A program made the translations under genes and the position numbers. DNA of 33,625 nucleotides from Akkermansia muciniphila (lineage in GTDB: Bacteria; Verrucomicrobiota; Verrucomicrobiia; Limisphaerales; BJHT01). The notes beneath the pieces were generated by a model. That model saw nothing but the letters and a program-made list of their open reading frames with translations. It was not told where the DNA came from and did no database searches. Positions within the stretch are counted from its first letter, which is position 1. Each line of letters starts with the position of its first letter. The stretch covers positions 1-33,625 of the forward strand of contig CAMAUZ010000083.1 in NCBI GenBank assembly GCA_945861535.1, written 5' to 3'. Positions 15,787-26,783 of this stretch are shown one piece after another.

Positions 15787-18700
15787 CTACTTCTTCTTCG
15801 GCGCCGCCGCCGGCTTCGGCGTGGTCCCGGCCTTCGCGGGCGGACGCGGCGCGGGCTTCGAGGCCGGCCCCGAGCCTTTCACCTGCCACACGCTCGCCGC
15901 GCCATCGAACAGCGCATACGTCCGCGGCGGGCTTTTGAAATTCACCGACGCCTGGCCCGTGACCAGCAGCAGCTTCCCCTGATACGCCAGGACCGACAGC
16001 ACCTTGCCCGTCCGCGACGGCGCGACGAAGCGCTCGTCGGCCTTGCCATCCGCGCGCACCAACACCTGCAAACCCTCCGTTGTCGGCACCAGCACCTGCG
16101 TCTCCGTCGCGATCGGTTGCCCCGAGACAAACGCGTCCAGCCGTCGCTGCCACTGCACCTTTCCATCCGTGCCGAACAACGCCGCGTCGCCCTGTTCGCT
16201 CAGGAAAAACACACCATCCGGCGTCACCAACGGACACGCCGTGACATACCCGCCGACCGGTTTCTTCCAAATTTCCTTTCCGTCCGCCGCCGCAAAACAA
16301 TGCGCCACGCCCTGCTCGTCGCCCACGTACACGCGCCCGCCCGCGACCGCCACGCTCCCGCGCGTGTGCGGCGCGACCGGCGCTTTCCACACGAGCAGGC
16401 CCGACGCCGCATCCACCGCGTAACAGAAGCCGTCGCCCGACGCGAAGATCACGCGCCCGCCCGCGAGCGCCGCGCTGCCGCGCACATCGCCGCCCGTGGC
16501 GAACTCCCACAGCAACGTCCCCGAATGCACGTCCAGCTTGTACAGCCGCCCGTCATCCGAACCGAAATAAACGTCGTCCCCGTCCGGCACCGGCGACGAA
16601 TACACGCGTCCGCCCGTCGGGAAACCCCACAGATACGTGCCGTTGTCCGCCACCGCGTGCAGCCGGTTGTCCGCCGAACCCACCAGCAACCGCCCGAGAT
16701 GCCGTGCGGGCGTGGTCGTGGGCGTGATGGTTTGCAGCGGCCAGGTCGGGCCGTTGCCGAGCCGCCGCGCGGCCGCCGGCGCGTCGGGCGCGGGCAGTTG
16801 CAGCGAACGAATCTGCCCCGCGGGATCGGCCAGCGTCAGCACGCCGTTCAGCACCGTCGCGCCCGCGTGAAACGCCGGGTCCAGCCGCTGGCTGCCGAAC
16901 ACTTCGTAATCACCCGTGAAATCCGCCGGCAGCTTCGCCGGCACATGCGTCGGGCCGCCCATGAACATTGGCCACGCCTCCGCATCGGCGAGCTGCGTCC
17001 CGCCCTCCTGCTCCGGCCCGCCCAGCGGACCATAGACCTCGATCTCCGTGATGCTTTCGTGATGCGCGCGATACAGCGGCAGAATCTTCATCGAGTCCGT
17101 GAACACCGGCTTGGCGAAATGCACCACGACGAAGCGCTTCTTGTTGCCCCGCACGAGCGCGACCGACTCGGGCAGTTTCGTCTTCGTGTTGTTCGCGAGA
17201 ATGCTGAGCGTCGTGTACACATCGTCCGGCCGCGCGTTGTTCAGATAAATCACCAGATGCGACACGTACGCAGGCTTCGGCATCACCACGCTGAACCCCA
17301 TCACGTCCGGTTGGTACGACCACACCGCGCCGACGTCATCGAGCCGGCCGTTGTGGAGAAACGCCTGCTCCTGGGTGTAGATCGTCGCCACGTTCGACGG
17401 CCCCTGCTTGTAGCCGGCGACGTGGTTGCGGTTCATCAGGCGCGAGCGCAGCGACTGCGGGATGCGGTCGTACTGCACGCGGATGTCGCGCACGAAGGTC
17501 GGGTCCACGGCCGCCAGCTCCGGGTCCGCCAGCAGGTTCGCCGACGGGAACCGCACCGCGCGCAGGCTCACCGCATCCAGCACCACGCGCCCGCCCACGG
17601 CCTCGAAACCCACTTCGAGCGACTTCGTCCCCGCGTAACTTTTCAGCGCCAGCCGCCCGAACAACCACTGCCCCGGACGCCCCTTGAACTCCGACGCCGT
17701 CAGCGCCGACTTCGCGCCGTCCTTCAATTCCACGCCCGCCGTCAGCGTCGCGCCCGCGCCCTCGAGCCGGTAGCGAAACTCCAGCAGATACGTCGCCGAC
17801 GGCACCACGCGCCGCCCGACCGCCTGCGTCACCAACTGCCCGTTCAACGCCAGCGCCCGCTTCCCCGCGAAGCCCGGCGTGACGAATTCCAGCTTCCCCG
17901 TCACGGCTTTCCACGCGTCGTCGGACTCGAAGCCGCCGTTCGTCAACTGCTCGATCCCGTGCCGCAGAATCTGGTCGTACTCGCCCGGCTGATCATCGTT
18001 CACCGGGAAAAAGTCCGGCGTGGAATCCAAGTCGCGCTGGAGCGCGGTCTGCACATACCCGGCGTAATTCGTTCCCGGCAATTCGTGCAACTTCGCGAGC
18101 CGCGTCTCCCACAGCAGCTTCCCGGTCGCGTCCACGCGCGCCACGCGGCCCGACTTGTCGCCGGCCGTCAGCAAGTCGCCCGTCGCGTCCATGACCGCAC
18201 CGAACGGCAGCTTCTGCGTCCACAGCAATTTCCCATCCGCCAGCGTGTGGCAGGAGATGTTTCCGTCGCGGTCGCAGCGATACAGGCGTTTCGCATCCGC
18301 GCTCACCACGTCGAGATCGGGCAGCACCGTCTCCGGCGCGGCGATGCGCCACAGCGGCTTCCCTTTCGCGTCGCGCCGCACGGCCTCGGTGCGGTCCAGC
18401 ACCAGCGTGCCGCCATCGGCCAGCGTGCGTCCGACCAAATCCTGCGGCGAGCCGAGGCTCGCGTCCTCTTTCAGCGGAATCGCCAGCCCCTTCGTGTGCG
18501 CAAACGGCACGGGCGAACTCGCCGGCCAGCTCACGCTCCAGCCGCGCGGCGCGGCCGAGCTGCCCGGATCATCCTTGCCCTCGGCGAGCACCTTGCCCGT
18601 CTTCGCTTCAATGATGAGCGGTCGGAACGCCCACAGCGTGTCCACCGTGCCCGGCACCTTGCCCGGCGTGGAACCCACGATCAGAAATTCCCCGTGAACA

Positions 18701-21700
18701 ATCTTCGTTCCGTCGGGACTGAGCTGCGCATTCGCCAGCACCACGCTGCGGCTGAACTCCGCCGCGAGACTTTGCTCGGCCTCGACCGGATACGTCGCGA
18801 TGGCCTCCGCGCGGTCGCGCAGCCACATGCGCTTGCCCTCGAAATCCACCGCCAGAATCCCCGTGCGCCCGAGCAGCAACACCTGCCGCAGCCTGGTGTT
18901 GATCACGATGGGCACCTCGGTATCGACCGGCCCTTCCGTGTAATGAAAATCCGCCCAGCCCGTCGTCGCGAACTTTCGCAGCACCTTCCCGTCCTTCGCA
19001 TCGAGAATGAAACACAGCCACCCGCGCCCCGTCGCCGCCACGATCTTTTTCCCGTCGTCGATGAAGCCCGCGAAATACACGTTGTGCTCGGGCAAGAACG
19101 TCTTCCACAGCAGCGTCCCGTCGGCGGCGAGGCAGAACAGATTGTCGCCGTAACCCGCCGTGCCCACGACCGTGCGGCCCGTCGCCGCATCGACATCCAC
19201 CATCCGCACCCAGTCCGGCCACGCGATCGCGTCGGCCATCGCTGACGGCGCTTTCGCCTTCGCCTCGCCCGCGGCCAGCGCGGCCTTCGGATCCGGCGCG
19301 GACCGCGTCACGACGGGCGCGACGATCTCGGTGCCCTTGCCCGCCTCGGGCGCAAGCACGGCATCGACGCCGCGCGTCAGCCCCGCCTCGTCCTGGCTGA
19401 GGATGCTCAGCGTGTCGTGATAGTTGGAGAAGGCCCGCACCGTCACGTTCACCAGCGCCCGCCCGCGGCCGGGGAAATTGGCCGTCAATGGCTCCGGCAA
19501 CACGTCGCGCCGGATCAACGCCTCGATCAACCGGCTCTCATACCGCCGCCCCAGCAACACCATCGGCGCTTCGACAAACAGCCCCGGCTCGACCACGTCC
19601 CCGCGCCACAGCCGCGTCCCGTCGATCTCCGCGCGCGTCATGTTCCATTCGCCCGGCAGCTTGATCACCTCATCCGCGTTCACGATGCGCGCCTCGCGGC
19701 CCTTCGCGGCCAGCGCCTTCTGCAACCGCTCCGCCTGCGGCCGCACCCACGCCTGGTCCGCGTCCGTCACGATCAGCACCGGCGTTTTGCCCGCGAGAAA
19801 TTTCGCCACGCGCGCCGGCTCGTTCACCCACACCGACCGCGCGTCCAGCGTGCCCGTCGGGACCGCGCCCGCACTGATTTCGATTCCCGCCTCCGCCACG
19901 CAGCCGCTCATCAACTCGCGCACCCGCAGCGTCCAGCGGCCCGCCGCCGCATTGGCGCCCACGCGATACACGCCACGAAACTCCGGCGCGGCCGCGCGCC
20001 ACACCTGCTGCACCGTCTTGCCCGCCGCGTCGCGCAGCTCGATCTCCAGCGGAAATGCCGCGTCAATCGCCTGCCCGTCCGCGCCCGCCACGTTGACCGC
20101 GTAATTCAAATCTTCGCCCGCCGTCACCCGCGCCGTCGCACCGAGCTTCACGCCCGCAATGGCCGTCGGCAGAAACGCCAGCAACTTCCCCGGCACCGCG
20201 CGCATGTCCGCCGTCAGCGTCATCCACTCGCCCTCGGTCTTCACGTCCGTGACCGGCTTCATCGCCAGCACGTCGTAGCAAACCGGCGGCCGCCGCGGGA
20301 ACCGCAACTGCGGCGCGTCCGGCGCCTGATGCAGCGCGCGGCCGAGACTGCTGAAACCGGGATCGGCGAAGTTCGGCAGGAACAGGTACTGCCCCTGCCC
20401 GCGCTTCTGCCAGTCGGGACCGACGAGCAAATTGTGCTGCGCGGCGGGGGGAATGCGCTTGGCCAAAAACTCGCGCACCGTCTTCGTGATTTCCTCCGAC
20501 TGGTCGAACACCTGCCGGAACTCGAAATCCAGCCCGCGCGGAAACGCCCCGCCCAGCTTGTCGTCGAACTCATCCAGCTCGGAATCCAGCCGCACCACGC
20601 CCTCGAGATCGAGCTTGCTCGAACGCTCGACGACGATGGTTTTGCCCGCCGAGATCAGCCGTTGCAGCGCCGCGCGCACCGTCGGCGCGATCTCCTGCTC
20701 GATGGTGAAACCGGGCGCGAAGATCACCTGGTATTCCAGCCCCTTCCCCGCGAGCAACTGGTGGTCGTAGAGAAAATCCGCCGGGAAACCCGCGCGCATG
20801 CAGCCCACCCAGATGCCCTCGCACGCGTGCGACACCGTCGTCTGTTTGCGCTGCGAGAGATGATCCGCCTGCCGCGAGTAATACACCGCCACCTGCTGGT
20901 AGCCGCGTTCGAGCGCGAGCAGAAAGTCGCCGTAGGGCCGCGTTAGTTGCCTCGTCACGTTGCGCGCCGTGTCCGCGGAATCGGTGTGATGCCGGTGCGC
21001 CGCATCGTGTCCGGACTCGAAGAACGAGATGCCTTCGACCTTTTGCGACAGCGCGAAAAACGTGTTCCGCAACTGGCTTTCCCCGTGCCGCCCCGAGACG
21101 TGGTGCGCGTCGATTTGCGTCCACACCGGCTGGCCGTCGCGCACGCGCAGGATGTCCGCCATAATCGCGCCATACGCGGGCCGAGGGCCGTAGCCGCCGT
21201 CCTTGTACATCACGCACGTCGCGATATCGAGGCCGCCCTGGACATCGAGCACCGTGCCGTTCCCCGCGATGTTGCCGCCGTTCCCGCCCCATTGCCGCTG
21301 AAACACAAAGTTCGCCGAGTGCGGCATCAGGTCCTTCGCCACCGCGCCGATGCGCCGCGAGAAGTCCGCCCATTCCTGGTCTTGAAATTCATTCCACGTC
21401 AGGAAGGTCGCGAGGTCCTCGTAATTCCGCTGGCCCGCCGGACGCCCCATGAAGCGGTCGATCGCCCGCGTCGCCCGCGCGCCCGTGAGGCCGCGGTCCT
21501 TGTGCTTCTCGCGGAAGGCCATCTCCTCCGCGGTGTCGATCGCCACGATCACCGGCGGCGGCAGGCCGATGATGCTCGTCCAGTAAAACTCGTCGTAGAG
21601 CGCCGCGCCGAGATACGCCGGGTGATGCCGCAGCGAGGCAATTTCCAGGCTCGCGTACCGCTCGCTGGCATCGATGAACAGCGGCAGGCGCGGCACCTGC

Positions 21701-24699
21701 GTGTCGTTGTAGGTGAAGAGGTCCTCGTAGAACCGGAGATTGTGCCGCAGCGCCGCCGTCATGAACCGGTCGCGCCCGCTCGCCTGATAATGGCTTTCCC
21801 ACGGCCCGAGTTCGGGCCGGTCGCGCACGAGCTGTTCGAGATCGGCGTGGTGGCGGTTCACGCGGTCCTGGTCGTAGCTCATGCCGCTGAAACCGTTGTA
21901 TCCGAGCGACTGAATCTCGCGCGCCAGTTCCTCCGCGCCGCGGCCCGTGCGCAGCGAACTCGAATACGCCGCGCCGAGCGGGCTGTACTTGCCGTTGGAG
22001 AGATTCACGAAATGCGTCTCCGGCTCGGAATCGACGAGATCAAACGCCAGCGGGGCCGCCGCGTAATCTCCGACCTTCGCCTCGAAGCGATACCGCCCCG
22101 GCGCGAGCGACCGGCTCAGCGCGTCGGGAATGCGCACGACGAACGTGTCGCGCTCGATCACCGCCGCCGCCAGCTTGTGCCGCAACAGCGGGAATTTCTT
22201 TCCCGCCGCATCCACCAAATCCACGTCCACCGCCGCGCCCGTCGGCGGCGACTGCCCCTTCACGAGCACCGCGACCGCGACCCAGAACGACTCGCCGCGC
22301 CAGAACGCGTCGCGTCCGCGCAGCGTGAACAAGCCCACGCCCACGGGCTTTTTCGTCGCCACGGAAATCCGCACCGTCGTGCGCAATGACAACGCCTCGG
22401 GATCGTCCGGCGCCATGCCCAGCTCAAGCTGATACACGCCATCGACCAGCGTCGCGGGCAGCGGAATTTCCAGTTCACCGGGAACGCCGTTCGCCACGGC
22501 CTTCGTCGGCAGCGCGGTCCACGCCGTTTCCTTTTCGCCGCGCAGACGCGCGAAGGGCTTCCAGTTCTCCGCCGTGTTCACGCCCTCGACCGCCTCGACC
22601 TTCGCGGACGCGTTGGTGAGCGCCGTCTCGGCGAGCGCCAGTTTCGCCTGCACCGTGGGGATTTGCGGCAGCAACTCCTCCAGCGCCTTCATCGCGTCGG
22701 TGACTTTCGCCCGCGCGTCGTCGATGTCCTTTTGCAGATCGGTGGTCACGACGTCCGGGTCTTTCACCTTCGCCGCGTCGAGCGCCTTCAGTTTCGCACC
22801 GACCGAGTTCGTCGCGGATTTCCACGCGTTCGTGCCCTGCGTGAGCTTGCTGTTCAACGCGCCCAGCGCGGTCTGCGCCGCCTTGAACGCATTCGTCGCC
22901 GCCCGTGCCCCGCGGTCCGCTTCGACAATCGGCCACGGATCAATCACGCGCACCGACGCGCGCACGCCCTGGCCCGGCTCCCAGTGGCGGCCCGTCAACT
23001 CGGCGACCAGCCCGCGTTGGGCGCCCTTCACGCGGTCGCCCGTCGCGACGCGAAACGACTTGATGGGAAACTTCGACAGATCGCCGTCCACGAGAATCGC
23101 CGGGCCGACCTCGGCGACCTTGAATTCATACGGCTGCTTGCGCGGATACCACGTCGTGAGCTTGCGCGCGCCGGCCTCGTGTCCGGCCCAGGTGTATTGT
23201 TCGACCCCGGGCACGATGGCCTTCGAGCCTGGCTCGCCCTCGACCGGAAAGCCGTACACCGGCACCTCGATCACGCTCTCCTTCACGTTCAAACCCGCGA
23301 TGGCCGCGCCGCCGCCCGCGCCCGCCTGCACGCCCGCCGCGCCGAGATGAAAAGTCTGCCCGAGCGGATGCAGCACGTAGCCCTGCGTGTCCGTGTTCGC
23401 CGGCAGCCAGATTGTGAGCGGCGCGAATTTTTCATAAACCGGCAGCAGCTCGCGCGATTTGTCCGCGCCCTTGCCCATGCCCTTCGCCGCGTCGTCCGCG
23501 TCGCGCAGCGTGAGGTTCGGCAGCGCCGCCACGCGCATCGACATCGGCAGATCGCTCTCGTCGGGATTCGCGCGATACGCGCGGACGCTGACCGGATACG
23601 CCTTGATCCGCACCACGCCGCCCTCGACGAGCAGCTCGGGATCCTTGGTCGAAAGCGCGCCGTTCGTGGCGACATTGAAAACATGCTTCCCCGGCCACAG
23701 CACATGCTCGCCCGGCTTGAGCACGGCGCGCGCGATGGGCAGGCGGTCGATGTATTTCCCCTCGTGAAAGCGCTCGAAGAACGGCTTGTCATCCAGCAGG
23801 ACATTGCGCGCCCAGCACACGACCTCCACGCCGACCTGCCGCATCTCGATGCCCGTCGGCGTCGAGACCGGATTGATGATCGGCTTGCGGCGCTCGAGCT
23901 TGTCCACCGTCGTGTCCGGCTGATTGAACGGCACGAGCCGCAGCTCGATCTCGAAACTGCCCTTCGGCACCTCGGCGGAAATGGCGGAGAACGGGGAGAG
24001 CAGTGTGAGCAATGCAAGAGCCAGCGCGGTGCCGAGCCGGGCGCATCCGCGCACGGCTCCCGTGTAGCGCAGACTTCCAAGTCTGCTGTATCGCGGGTTT
24101 CCAAACCCGCAGACGCTCCGACCACCCGCAGCGCCGCGGCTTGTCTCACGCGTCCGAAAGTCCGTGGCCGCCGCCGATTTAGAAATCGGCGACACAGCAG
24201 GTTTGGAAACCTGCGCTACAGGGGCGGTGCGCGAATCCGCGCCACCAAGCTGGGAGCTTCCGCGCTCGGCTCCGGTGTAGCGCAGACTTCCAAGTCTGCT
24301 GTATCGCGGGTTTCCAAACCCGCGGACGGTCCGACCACCCGCAGCGCCCCTGCTTGTCTCACGCGTCCGAAAATCCGCAGCCCCCGCCGATTTGGAAATT
24401 GGCGACACAGCAGGTTTGGAAACCTGCGCTACAGGGGCGGTGCGCGAATCCGCGCCACCAAGCTGGGAGCTTCCGCGCTCGGCTCCGCTGTAGCGCAGAC
24501 TTCCAAGTCTGCTGTATCGCGGGTTTCCAAACCCGCGGACCGTCCGACCACCCGCAGCGCCGCGGCCTGTCTCACGCGTCCGGAAATCCGCAGCCCCCGC
24601 CGATTTGGAAATCGGCGACACAGCAGGTTTGGAAACCTGCGCTACAACGGCCGCGCACGGCGTGCGCCGCAAACCCGGATTGCCCTCTTTGATCTTCAT
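15787..24699 (-). CDS. Giant secreted glycosidase-like protein with coiled coil and PQQ propellers
   Basis: A 2970-residue protein. Start choice: the ATG at 24699 has GGGGA 7 nt upstream, the same layout as before the neighbouring DUF4159 gene; a GTG at 24054 directly before the signal peptide is the alternative. Residues about 19-213 are encoded by three tandem palindromic repeats. The signal peptide core is LGTALALALLTLLSPFSAIS (about 223-242). Then come a beta-rich region, a helical Ala-rich coiled coil (about 600-703), a glycosidase-like domain (about 890-1470, with GYNGFSGMSYDQD, YLGAALYDEFYW and FLTWNEFQDQEW), a first set of PQQ-like repeats (about 1830-2230; DGTLLWKT, DGKLLWTQ), a galactose-binding-like sandwich, a second PQQ-like beta-propeller (about 2640-2950; SGTLLWEFATGG) and a Pro/Lys/Ala tail. 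It is probably an exported glycan-active or scaffold protein. The exact reaction is unknown. Confidence 0.7.
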   Translation of the reverse strand: MKIKEGNPGLRRTPCAAVVAQVSKPAVSPISKSAGAADFRTRETGRGAAGGRTVRGFGNPRYSRLGSLRYSGAERGSSQLGGADSRTAPVAQVSKPAVSPISKSAGAADFRTRETSRGAAGGRTVRGFGNPRYSRLGSLRYTGAERGSSQLGGADSRTAPVAQVSKPAVSPISKSAAATDFRTRETSRGAAGGRSVCGFGNPRYSRLGSLRYTGAVRGCARLGTALALALLTLLSPFSAISAEVPKGSFEIELRLVPFNQPDTTVDKLERRKPIINPVSTPTGIEMRQVGVEVVCWARNVLLDDKPFFERFHEGKYIDRLPIARAVLKPGEHVLWPGKHVFNVATNGALSTKDPELLVEGGVVRIKAYPVSVRAYRANPDESDLPMSMRVAALPNLTLRDADDAAKGMGKGADKSRELLPVYEKFAPLTIWLPANTDTQGYVLHPLGQTFHLGAAGVQAGAGGGAAIAGLNVKESVIEVPVYGFPVEGEPGSKAIVPGVEQYTWAGHEAGARKLTTWYPRKQPYEFKVAEVGPAILVDGDLSKFPIKSFRVATGDRVKGAQRGLVAELTGRHWEPGQGVRASVRVIDPWPIVEADRGARAATNAFKAAQTALGALNSKLTQGTNAWKSATNSVGAKLKALDAAKVKDPDVVTTDLQKDIDDARAKVTDAMKALEELLPQIPTVQAKLALAETALTNASAKVEAVEGVNTAENWKPFARLRGEKETAWTALPTKAVANGVPGELEIPLPATLVDGVYQLELGMAPDDPEALSLRTTVRISVATKKPVGVGLFTLRGRDAFWRGESFWVAVAVLVKGQSPPTGAAVDVDLVDAAGKKFPLLRHKLAAAVIERDTFVVRIPDALSRSLAPGRYRFEAKVGDYAAAPLAFDLVDSEPETHFVNLSNGKYSPLGAAYSSSLRTGRGAEELAREIQSLGYNGFSGMSYDQDRVNRHHADLEQLVRDRPELGPWESHYQASGRDRFMTAALRHNLRFYEDLFTYNDTQVPRLPLFIDASERYASLEIASLRHHPAYLGAALYDEFYWTSIIGLPPPVIVAIDTAEEMAFREKHKDRGLTGARATRAIDRFMGRPAGQRNYEDLATFLTWNEFQDQEWADFSRRIGAVAKDLMPHSANFVFQRQWGGNGGNIAGNGTVLDVQGGLDIATCVMYKDGGYGPRPAYGAIMADILRVRDGQPVWTQIDAHHVSGRHGESQLRNTFFALSQKVEGISFFESGHDAAHRHHTDSADTARNVTRQLTRPYGDFLLALERGYQQVAVYYSRQADHLSQRKQTTVSHACEGIWVGCMRAGFPADFLYDHQLLAGKGLEYQVIFAPGFTIEQEIAPTVRAALQRLISAGKTIVVERSSKLDLEGVVRLDSELDEFDDKLGGAFPRGLDFEFRQVFDQSEEITKTVREFLAKRIPPAAQHNLLVGPDWQKRGQGQYLFLPNFADPGFSSLGRALHQAPDAPQLRFPRRPPVCYDVLAMKPVTDVKTEGEWMTLTADMRAVPGKLLAFLPTAIAGVKLGATARVTAGEDLNYAVNVAGADGQAIDAAFPLEIELRDAAGKTVQQVWRAAAPEFRGVYRVGANAAAGRWTLRVRELMSGCVAEAGIEISAGAVPTGTLDARSVWVNEPARVAKFLAGKTPVLIVTDADQAWVRPQAERLQKALAAKGREARIVNADEVIKLPGEWNMTRAEIDGTRLWRGDVVEPGLFVEAPMVLLGRRYESRLIEALIRRDVLPEPLTANFPGRGRALVNVTVRAFSNYHDTLSILSQDEAGLTRGVDAVLAPEAGKGTEIVAPVVTRSAPDPKAALAAGEAKAKAPSAMADAIAWPDWVRMVDVDAATGRTVVGTAGYGDNLFCLAADGTLLWKTFLPEHNVYFAGFIDDGKKIVAATGRGWLCFILDAKDGKVLRKFATTGWADFHYTEGPVDTEVPIVINTRLRQVLLLGRTGILAVDFEGKRMWLRDRAEAIATYPVEAEQSLAAEFSRSVVLANAQLSPDGTKIVHGEFLIVGSTPGKVPGTVDTLWAFRPLIIEAKTGKVLAEGKDDPGSSAAPRGWSVSWPASSPVPFAHTKGLAIPLKEDASLGSPQDLVGRTLADGGTLVLDRTEAVRRDAKGKPLWRIAAPETVLPDLDVVSADAKRLYRCDRDGNISCHTLADGKLLWTQKLPFGAVMDATGDLLTAGDKSGRVARVDATGKLLWETRLAKLHELPGTNYAGYVQTALQRDLDSTPDFFPVNDDQPGEYDQILRHGIEQLTNGGFESDDAWKAVTGKLEFVTPGFAGKRALALNGQLVTQAVGRRVVPSATYLLEFRYRLEGAGATLTAGVELKDGAKSALTASEFKGRPGQWLFGRLALKSYAGTKSLEVGFEAVGGRVVLDAVSLRAVRFPSANLLADPELAAVDPTFVRDIRVQYDRIPQSLRSRLMNRNHVAGYKQGPSNVATIYTQEQAFLHNGRLDDVGAVWSYQPDVMGFSVVMPKPAYVSHLVIYLNNARPDDVYTTLSILANNTKTKLPESVALVRGNKKRFVVVHFAKPVFTDSMKILPLYRAHHESITEIEVYGPLGGPEQEGGTQLADAEAWPMFMGGPTHVPAKLPADFTGDYEVFGSQRLDPAFHAGATVLNGVLTLADPAGQIRSLQLPAPDAPAAARRLGNGPTWPLQTITPTTTPARHLGRLLVGSADNRLHAVADNGTYLWGFPTGGRVYSSPVPDGDDVYFGSDDGRLYKLDVHSGTLLWEFATGGDVRGSAALAGGRVIFASGDGFCYAVDAASGLLVWKAPVAPHTRGSVAVAGGRVYVGDEQGVAHCFAAADGKEIWKKPVGGYVTACPLVTPDGVFFLSEQGDAALFGTDGKVQWQRRLDAFVSGQPIATETQVLVPTTEGLQVLVRADGKADERFVAPSRTGKVLSVLAYQGKLLLVTGQASVNFKSPPRTYALFDGAASVWQVKGSGPASKPAPRPPAKAGTTPKPAAAPKKK
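24063..24646. repeat. Three tandem 213-bp repeats, each with a 158-bp palindromic element
   Basis: Palindromic elements with ends TGTAGCGCAG and CTGCGCTACA lie at 24063-24220, 24276-24433 and 24489-24646. Starts are exactly 213 bp apart (71 codons), so the array is a tandem repeat that includes a 55-bp spacer. All three are open in the frame of the giant gene and encode segments with VAQVSKPAVSPISKSA and NPRYSRLGSLRY. An 11-bp direct repeat, CCGCGCACGGC, flanks the array (24047-24057 and 24651-24661). The family also occurs at 4009-4130. Confidence 0.85.
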
Positions 24700-24714: not shown

Positions 24715-25671
24715 TCAATGCGTGTAAACAAACAACACCCAGTTGGCCATCCACTGGTACATGGTCTCGCGCTGGCGGTTGTCGCCGCCGTGCCCGATGC
24801 CTTCACCGATCGGATTCGAGGCGCTGGGCGGCGTCGAGATTTCCCAGCCGCAGCCGTCGTCGTTCGGGCTGAAGAAAATCGCCGGCCGGTTATCCAGCGG
24901 GAAATACAGCCACGCGCGGTTCTCGAACTCCGCCGCGCCCGGCCACGGCGTCGGATAGATCATCTTGAAACAGTCCTTCACCAGCACGTCGTCCTGCGCC
25001 AGCACGCGCGGCTCCGCGCCCACGATCATCTTCGCCACTTCGGGCCGCACCGACTCGGCGAACGGGCTGCCGCGATTGTAGCAATCATCCAGAAACAAGG
25101 TGCCGCCGCGCTTGAGAAACAGCGTCAGGTTCGCGTTCTCCTTCTCATTGAAACCCCAGCGGTAATGCGACGTGAGATACAGCACCGTCTCCTGAAAGAT
25201 GTCGTCCTTCCCCGTGTTCAGCCCCTCGTTTTCGATATGCACCGGCAGGTCCGTGCGCTTGCCGATCTGGTAGAGCATGTAGGGAACGGCCGTCGGGTCC
25301 GTGTTCCAATCCACGCTCGGCATCGCCGGCTGAATCTTGCGGATGCGAATCTTGTTCCGCCGGTCCGCCTCGCCCTGCTCTGACCGTTTCACCGCCTCCG
25401 TCGCCGAAATCTCCGTGCGGTTCATCTGCCGCGCCCGCTCGGCCCACGACTGCGCGTGCGAGGCGGGCGTGAGCAACAACAGCGCGACAAAAAACGCGAG
25501 CAGGCAGAACGCCGGCAGCGTGGAGCAATTCGAAAATTGGTAGGGCGCGTCTGTCCTCAGCGCGCCGCTTCGGTGTACGCACGGTCCGCGGCGCGCTGAG
25601 GACAGACGCGCCCTACCATCCCGCTCACGAAAACTCCCCGCCAAATCCAGATTCCCACCAACAGTCTTCAT
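24715..25671 (-). CDS. DUF4159-domain secreted protein (paralog A)
   Basis: A 318-residue protein with start ATG 25671 (GGGA 7 nt upstream), 14 nt after the stop of its paralog. Residues 19-45 come from a 79-bp palindromic element. The signal-peptide core follows (AFCLLAFFVALLLLTPASHA), with probable cleavage after A73. From about residue 105 the DUF4159 domain runs to the end: VDWNTDPTAVPYMLYQIGK, then VLYLTSHYRWGF, GGTLFLDDCYNRGSPF (about 188-203) and ENRAWLYFPLDN. DUF4159 is predicted to have a class I glutamine amidotransferase-like fold; no enzymatic role is established. The C-terminal 250 residues differ from the paralog at only a few places (LNTGKDD for LNVAKDD; WMANWVLFVYTH for WMTNWVLFAYTH), which marks a recent tandem duplication. 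Confidence 0.82.
   Translation of the reverse strand: MKTVGGNLDLAGSFRERDGRARLSSARRGPCVHRSGALRTDAPYQFSNCSTLPAFCLLAFFVALLLLTPASHAQSWAERARQMNRTEISATEAVKRSEQGEADRRNKIRIRKIQPAMPSVDWNTDPTAVPYMLYQIGKRTDLPVHIENEGLNTGKDDIFQETVLYLTSHYRWGFNEKENANLTLFLKRGGTLFLDDCYNRGSPFAESVRPEVAKMIVGAEPRVLAQDDVLVKDCFKMIYPTPWPGAAEFENRAWLYFPLDNRPAIFFSPNDDGCGWEISTPPSASNPIGEGIGHGGDNRQRETMYQWMANWVLFVYTH
25539..25617. repeat. 79-bp palindromic element in DUF4159 gene A
   Basis: Two perfect 29-bp inverted arms begin GGTAGGGCGCGTCTGTCCTC and enclose a 21-nt loop that starts CTTCGGTGTACGC on the plus strand. It lies between the start codon and signal-peptide core of the gene and is read through in frame. Confidence 0.85.
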
Positions 25672-25678
25672 AAAATTT

Positions 25679-25682
25679 TCCC
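25679..25682 (-). promoter_or_regulatory. Ribosome binding site for DUF4159 gene A
   Basis: GGGA on the minus strand lies 7 nt before the ATG at 25671. It places the start codon upstream of the 79-bp repeat. Confidence 0.45.
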
Positions 25683-25685
25683 GGT

Positions 25686-26681
25686 TCAATGCGTGTAAGC
25701 GAACAACACCCAGTTGGTCATCCACTGGTACATCGTTTCGCGCTGGCGGTTGTCGCCGCCGTGGCCGATGCCTTCGCCGATCGGGTTCGACGCACTCGGC
25801 GGCGTCGAGATTTCCCAGCCGCAGCCGTCATCATTCGGGCTGAAGAAAATCGCGGGCCGGTTATCCAGCGGGAAATAGAGCCACGCGCGATTCTCGAACT
25901 CCGCGGCCCCCGGCCATGGCGTGGGATAGATCATCTTAAAACAGTCCTTCACCAGCACGTCGTCCTGCGCCAGCACCCGCGGCTCCGCGCCCACGATCAT
26001 CTTCGCCACCTCGGGCCGCACCGACTCGGCAAACGGGCTGCCGCGATTGTAGCAATCATCCAGAAACAACGTGCCGCCGCGCTTCAGAAACAGCGTCAGA
26101 TTCGCGTTCTCCTTCTCATTGAATCCCCAGCGGTAGTGCGACGTGAGGTAGAGCACCGTCTCCTGAAAGATGTCGTCCTTCGCGACGTTCAAGCCCTCGT
26201 TCTCGATATGCACCGGCAGGTCCGTGCGCTTGCCGATTTGGTAGAGCATGTAGGGAACGGCCGTCGGGTCCGTGTTCCAGTCCACGCTCGGCATCGCCGG
26301 CTGAATCTTGCGGATGCGGATTTTGTTCCGCCGGTCCGCCTCGCCCTGCTCCGAGCGCTTCACCGCCTCCGTCGCCGAGATTTCCGTCCGGTTCATCTGC
26401 CGCGCCCGCTCCGCCCACGACTGCGCGTGCGCCGCCAGCGGCAGCAGCACGGTGCAAAATGCGAGCAGGCAAAACCCCAGCAGCGTGGACCCTCTGGGAG
26501 CTTGGTAGGGCGCGTCTGTCCCCAGCGCGCCGCGGGCCGTGCGGACGCCGAACCGGCGCGCTGAGGACAGACGCGCCCTACCAGTCCGCTTTGGAAAACT
26601 CCCGCCCCCCGCCGCGCCAGCCTGTGTCTCCCCACCAACCAAGTCCGGAGGCTCCTGGCCGACAAAGAATCCACATGTCAT
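25686..26681 (-). CDS. DUF4159-domain secreted protein (paralog B)
   Basis: A 331-residue protein if started at the ATG at 26681; a more distal start at 26729 is open, and a TTG near the VGG stretch is possible. Residues 34-60 are encoded by a 79-bp palindromic element. The signal core follows (LLGFCLLAFCTVLLPLAAHA), with cleavage likely before QSWAERARQ. The DUF4159 domain (VDWNTDPTAVPYMLYQIGK, GGTLFLDDCYNRGSPF) is nearly identical to that of paralog A, while the N-terminal 80 residues differ more. The sequence VGG...GSF just before the element is recognisable in both paralogs, so the duplication covers the 5' end as well. It stands about 100 nt after the nagA-like gene and 14 nt before paralog A. 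Confidence 0.8.
   Translation of the reverse strand: MTCGFFVGQEPPDLVGGETQAGAAGGGSFPKRTGRARLSSARRFGVRTARGALGTDAPYQAPRGSTLLGFCLLAFCTVLLPLAAHAQSWAERARQMNRTEISATEAVKRSEQGEADRRNKIRIRKIQPAMPSVDWNTDPTAVPYMLYQIGKRTDLPVHIENEGLNVAKDDIFQETVLYLTSHYRWGFNEKENANLTLFLKRGGTLFLDDCYNRGSPFAESVRPEVAKMIVGAEPRVLAQDDVLVKDCFKMIYPTPWPGAAEFENRAWLYFPLDNRPAIFFSPNDDGCGWEISTPPSASNPIGEGIGHGGDNRQRETMYQWMTNWVLFAYTH
26504..26582. repeat. 79-bp palindromic element in DUF4159 gene B (loop inverted)
   Basis: The 29-bp arms match those at 25539-25617 with one mismatch. The 21-nt loop is CGGGCCGTGCGGACGCCGAA(C) on the plus strand. Its reverse complement, GTTCGGCGTCCGCACGGCCC(G), matches the other loop at 17 of 21 positions, whereas the direct orientation does not match. 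Confidence 0.85.
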
Positions 26682-26783
26682 GCGCGTGTTTATGCGGGCG
26701 ACGCTTGCCCAAACAAAACAGCCCCACAAGCTCCAATCCGGTTCGCACGCGCGCTGCGCCGCAGCCCGCCGGTATTGAGTCCC

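Follow-up and report, generated by a model that had tools for sequence, protein, structure and literature searches.

In-place inversion of loops in a family of REPIN-like repeats, probably including a pair of copies in tandem DUF4159 genes

Results

Two palindromes lie in the 5' regions of tandem DUF4159 genes

We analysed a window of 33,625 nt (contig CAMAUZ010000083.1, positions 1 to 33,625) from a lake bacterium whose assembly is assigned to Akkermansia muciniphila (GCA_945861535.1; hereafter G000, a draft of 7.94 Mb in 169 contigs), and used the genome of a congeneric sister species (hereafter G001) for comparison. The features considered here are the following, with positions given on the window.

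24715-25725, minus strand: open frame with DUF4159 gene 1 (constrained core, 24715-25449)
25539-25617: copy 1 of a REPIN-like palindrome, with GTAG-tagged REP arms of about 29 nt each, inverted around a 21-nt loop; it lies within the 5' region of gene 1
25568-25588: copy-1 loop, which reads CTTCGGTGTACGCACGGTCCG on the plus strand
25618-25638: copy-1 upstream flank, which aligns without gaps to the copy-2 flank and carries GAAAACTCCC
25686-26729, minus strand: open frame with DUF4159 gene 2 (constrained core, 25686-26420)
26504-26582: copy 2, the palindrome within the 5' region of gene 2, with a single arm mismatch at position 19
26533-26553: copy-2 loop
26583-26603: copy-2 upstream flank, homologous to 25618-25638

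Both genes match the DUF4159 profile (PF13709; E = 3.5e-24 for gene 1 and 1.2e-24 for gene 2), and their cores are identical at 686 of 735 nt (93.3%; dS = 0.33, dN/dS = 0.03), which agrees with their earlier description as near-identical tandem paralogs. The two 79-bp palindromes of the original prediction were likewise confirmed, and their arms, said to match, differ at only one of 58 positions. The arms of copy 1 are perfect (31 nt when flanking bases are counted), and as single-stranded DNA this copy is predicted to fold at -47.4 kcal/mol (z = -11.3). The loops are indeed flipped relative to each other, being identical at 17 of 21 positions when one is reverse-complemented and at 2 of 21 when compared directly. 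Elsewhere in the window, a palindrome-rich 213-nt unit occurs three times head-to-tail at 24025-24663 (the later units are 91% and 86% identical to the first), near the start of a minus-strand frame at 15787-24699.

The palindromes most likely occupy non-coding leader DNA

Codon-position bias is absent upstream of the gene-2 signal peptide: between G000 and G001, the 5' stretch of gene 2 carries 8, 9, and 10 mismatches at the three codon positions and has a dN/dS of 0.63. This ratio and the even spread of mismatches argue that the element most likely sits in non-coding leader DNA of the DUF4159 genes, and the two peptides read from the loops are most likely chance readings of a GC-rich frame. 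We therefore rejected a loop translated as a selected peptide, since the 5' segment evolves like non-coding DNA while the core is strongly constrained. The original prediction had also proposed that inversion changes the encoded peptide and could act as a small switch; this found no support, as the repeat belongs to a large dispersed family and the segment shows the behaviour of non-coding DNA.

Between the element and the presumed signal-peptide hydrophobic stretch, neither copy has an in-frame ATG, GTG, or TTG. Within that stretch, a GTG occurs in gene 2 and TTGs in gene 1, and some DUF4159 orthologs have an ATG at about the element-to-signal-peptide interval. Given the lack of an in-frame start in both copies and the ATG of some orthologs, the true starts of the DUF4159 genes are uncertain.

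The element belongs to a dispersed REPIN-like family

The 18-nt outer arm has 164 forward and 158 reverse matches in G000 (322 in total, at most two mismatches), which suggests about 160 copies of the element. In the G000 DNA examined, we catalogued 107 two-arm and 24 one-arm groups. Among the first 93 two-arm copies examined, 89 are 78-80 nt long with a loop of 20-22 nt. Each arm begins with GGTAGGG, so that the GTAG tag of each REP lies outermost; a single arm is predicted to form a small hairpin behind this GTAG (-11.1 kcal/mol, z = -4.4), and a related arm type also makes hybrid doublets. The loops are variable around a shared consensus and occur in both orientations relative to the strand (56 and 33 of 89). 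Flank preference is weak (G at -3 in 64%, T at -2 in 43%), no target duplications were found around the elements, and the element has no Rfam match. At equal stringency the arm has 71 matches in G001, so that the repeat is far commoner or better kept in G000. Two elements about 1.4 kb apart in G000 (L069:4220 and L069:5625; G000:C128:12719 and 14124) have similar flanks and loops in the same orientation.

This anatomy is that of a REPIN, or 'HH' GTAG dimer, in which GTAG-tagged REPs stand inverted around a spacer of 20-100 bp, according to the available text of PMC3116915 and PMC3733652. The association with a RAYT gene (REPtron) was not found. G000 has nine Y1_Tnp matches, and within 1.5 kb of these nine loci the arm pattern (up to four mismatches) does not occur; the closest arm copies seen lie about 2.8 kb from one Y1 locus, and no Y1 gene was found flanked by the element. 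Of four Y1 proteins scanned, three are of the IS200 type and the fourth scores 50 bits against a RAYT cut-off of 80. The element is therefore REPIN-like by anatomy.

Loops are inverted at orthologous sites between two species

We compared loop orientation at orthologous elements of G000 and G001 that had both flanks and comparable loops (n = 14), and found ten in unchanged orientation and four inverted. The rule for scoring, set after the rows had been seen, was a smaller distance of at most 8 edits and a margin of at least 3. The inverted pairs are L152/L101 (13 edits direct, 3 reversed), L169/L098 (10 and 6), L131/L234 (10 and 5), and L120/L089 (13 and 8), the last being the weakest, with 8 edits and a right arm that is truncated in G000 and G001 alike. 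Flank conservation reaches the element from either side in L152/L101 and L169/L098. The L131/L234 pair combines a reversed loop with position-19 arm variants that stay on the same sides, which places the exchange points inside position 19. Two of the ten unchanged pairs (L167 and L181) are elements with unlike arms.

From the G000 side, 26 of 131 groups had both flanks in G001; these gave 13 comparable loops, eight dropped cases (L148 twice, L177, L182 twice, window gene 2, L035, and L046), and five sites without an element in G001. Cases were dropped for degenerate elements, one-armed or chance arms, a smaller distance above 8, or a margin below 3, and they include four that automatic scoring had also called inverted (two loci in L148, L182, and L046). 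Starting from G001, both flanks were located for 19 of 49 groups, of which eight repeat unchanged pairs, four repeat the inverted pairs, one is a new unchanged pair (L236/L045), and the remaining six were dropped or lack an element. One further G000 group with flanks found in G001 has no element there, and inspection by eye revealed no clean empty sites in G001 among the listed both-flank loci without an element. Among hybrid elements with unlike arms (n = 17, G000 and G001, ortholog rows not collapsed), the orientation of the loop to the arms is kept 14 to 3, which may indicate that mismatched arms invert less.

An alignment scan of 186,270 columns (redundant) yielded six candidates for in-place inversion, all in palindrome loops: four in the REPIN-like family and two in another palindromic family. 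One scan candidate, L069/L238, has a single aligned flank, lies in a repeated unit, and was left out of the 14 pairs. The two candidates of the other family, marked by TACCGCAGGCG, are the inverted loops at L304:3872 versus L329 and at L148:5953 versus L237, with the alignment mainly on one side in both cases in the DNA covered. In a further family, marked by GGCAAAGGAATGG...CCATTCCTTTGCC, the longer loop of L157:5747-5842 is inverted in place relative to L263 between the species. A first generic test of inverted repeats mixed non-orthologous copies, and its inversion candidate L174/L082 is weak and of uncertain orthology; a stricter test of non-REPIN inverted repeats found 43 unchanged and none inverted, 39 of the 43 having stems of 9-10 bp. 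Together, the four inversions among 14 orthologous sites and the confinement of scan hits to palindrome loops indicate that in-place loop inversion is real and recurrent.

We considered whether an assembler might have set loop orientation arbitrarily between perfect arms. G000 is a draft, and because the copy-1 arms are identical over 31 nt, the assembled orientation of that copy hinges on k-mers longer than 31. Against such an artefact, the arms are mismatched in copy 2 and in the six copies that form three of the four inverted ortholog pairs; the identical stretches in these arms measure 10-22 nt and are resolved by k-mers above 22, so the inversion seen in the family is independent of copy 1. 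The artefact thus fails for the three measured pairs with mismatched arms, and for window copy 1 it is a slim possibility.

The window pair shares a site and probably an ancestral element

Aligned without gaps, the window copies have flanks that agree at 53 of 80 positions on the coding side and 16 of 21 upstream; just 27 of 21,945 flank pairs from other elements do as well as the upstream figure. Among 93 G000 and 13 G001 copies examined, an exact GAAAACTCCC at the same offset occurs solely at the two window elements. The earlier claim of an equivalent codon position thus stands as far as the nucleotide is concerned, given the ungapped homologous flanks, and its codon part holds only inside the long open frame. 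G001 has both DUF4159 genes: in gene 2 the same boundary holds just one arm, in degenerate form, and in gene 1 the site lacks the element and has other repeats. The loop divergence that would remain after inversion (4 of 21) is consistent with that of the flanks and with the core dS.

Two independent insertions into the same nucleotide of both paralogs, in opposite loop orientation, would explain the pair differently. The repeat is dispersed and probably mobile, the loops of unrelated copies can be equally similar, and the first 14 nt beside the element on the coding side are identical between the window copies at only six positions. Nevertheless, one nucleotide must be hit twice by an element with a weak flank preference and no target duplication, and the arm at the gene-2 site predates the species split. 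We therefore regard independent insertion as unlikely.

The similarity of the loops has to be read against the family. The 17 of 21 match is far beyond chance relative to random sequence and ordinary among family members: 5.3% of G000 loop pairs lie within 4 edits in their better orientation, and four other elements, at 3 edits, lie nearer to the copy-2 loop than copy 1 does. Since some family pairs are equally close, the loops alone do not make the window copies sisters, and we rejected the match as proof of common loop descent.

The same four neighbours would suit a replacement of the loop from another genomic copy, by ectopic gene conversion or by template switching between arms that are near-identical genome-wide. 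Gene conversion is also suggested within the tandem: the gene-2 cores of G000 and G001 are 89.4% identical, compared with 93.3% for gene 2 and gene 1 within G000, and this greater closeness to gene 1 makes gene conversion or a more complex history likely. Replacement nevertheless predicts unchanged orthologous pairs at a family-level distance (7-9), and none was seen; moreover, the four reversed distances are smaller than those of random between-genome loop pairs (P(sum <= 22) = 0.0086, post hoc), a result that speaks for the same loop having been inverted. Replacement is thus an improbable source of the flipped loop, and the loop of the window pair was likely flipped in place.

Discussion

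Template switching between the arms may account for the inversion

Our preferred account, which we hold with moderate confidence, is that a REPIN-like element present before the duplication later had one loop inverted by template switching, as a passive by-product and not a programmed switch. A GTAG-tagged REP doublet of the dispersed family would first have come to lie in the 5' region of one DUF4159 gene, and a tandem duplication of the gene would then have carried the element along. After that, one of the two copies would have had the loop between its near-perfect inverted arms reversed in place: the nascent strand at a replication fork may have switched to the opposite strand in one arm, copied the loop, and returned by a second switch within the other arm. 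For the window locus, we infer both this process and the order of events; more generally, inversion may be a passive and recurrent by-product of long perfect arms. Hairpin-mediated strand switching fits the long near-perfect arms, the strong single-stranded hairpins, the recurrence in unrelated palindrome families, and the unchanged flanks. The proposal of the original prediction that the element inverted through its arms after duplication is thereby strengthened by the four of 14 inverted orthologous sites and the homology of the flanks on both sides, and is likely for this particular pair.

Three observations count against the full account, namely that the 17 of 21 loop match is at family level only, that the adjacent coding-side bases agree at 6 of 14, and that G001 gene 1 lacks the element. 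In addition, the REPIN-like family lacks arm homogenisation, which is otherwise a common trace of template switching: only one of about 90 arm variants outside position 19 is shared between the two arms. In yeast, the arms were already perfect in nine of ten spacer inversions in the part of that work available (PMC8604942), so homogenisation is not a required feature of template switching.

The loop might instead be flipped by an enzyme, either a Y1 transposase (RAYT-like or IS200-type) or a site-specific invertase, which would make it a real switch. A loop of about 21 nt is very short for an invertase, the arm pattern (up to four mismatches) is missing within 1.5 kb of all nine Y1 loci, and unrelated palindrome families invert as well. 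The nine Y1_Tnp matches themselves are on the side of this reading, as is the description of GTAG-tagged REPs as RAYT substrates (PMC8266576, available text). On balance, we consider enzymatic flipping very unlikely and retain passive template switching as the preferred explanation.

Implications

Overall, the small inversion is real, recurrent, and of a mechanistically known kind in a REPIN-like family, and no switch has been demonstrated. What appeared to be a gene-specific switch belongs to a large repeat family. A stronger possibility, which we consider doubtful, is that REPIN loops across the genus invert so often, through a Y1/RAYT-like enzyme or as hot spots with long perfect arms, that over the lifetime of a genus their orientation is near random; if so, a repeat in a 5' leader would provide two heritable leader sequences per gene. 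Loop orientation can be scored at the numerous near-perfect-armed copies that occupy fixed sites in G000 and G001, so the family forms a natural experiment for measuring how fast hairpin loops invert in a bacterial chromosome. Such copies also call for caution, as loop orientation in REP doublets is unreliable evidence of independent insertion and a hazard for assembly. Within a partial full-text coverage of the literature, we found no report of REP loop inversion or of spacer inversion in bacterial palindromes, and REPIN inversion was absent among the matches listed in a broader search, which does not by itself prove novelty.

Comparison with known systems

In intragenic and promoter invertons, a segment between inverted repeats reverses. 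The REPIN-like loop likewise reverses between inverted repeats; unlike invertons, the window elements give no sign of switching or of translation through the segment. With REPINs, the family shares high copy number, GTAG at both outer ends, hairpin arms, the inverted arm pair ('HH dimer') around a spacer, degenerate single arms, and hybrid doublets (PMC3116915, PMC3733652, available portions). It differs from them in that no Y1/RAYT gene was found flanked by the element, and the likeness is one of anatomy. In contrast to the REPIN accounts in those portions, loop inversion at fixed sites was seen here. Small inversions of 4-50 bp in chloroplast genomes have been attributed to hairpins (review PMC12371153, in part); the present case differs in lying on a bacterial chromosome, where the hairpin is a dispersed repeat. 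Inversion of loops or spacers by template switching has been described for rRNA and microRNA hairpins (PMC8794818) and for yeast genes (PMC8604942). As far as the available text of these two papers goes, the process matches ours in that the segment between inverted arms is reversed in place, the arms usually stay unchanged, and the event is reversible and recurrent. The loops in those cases are about 2-8 nt long, whereas here they are about 21 nt, and longer in another family, and are carried by many dispersed repeats within one genus.
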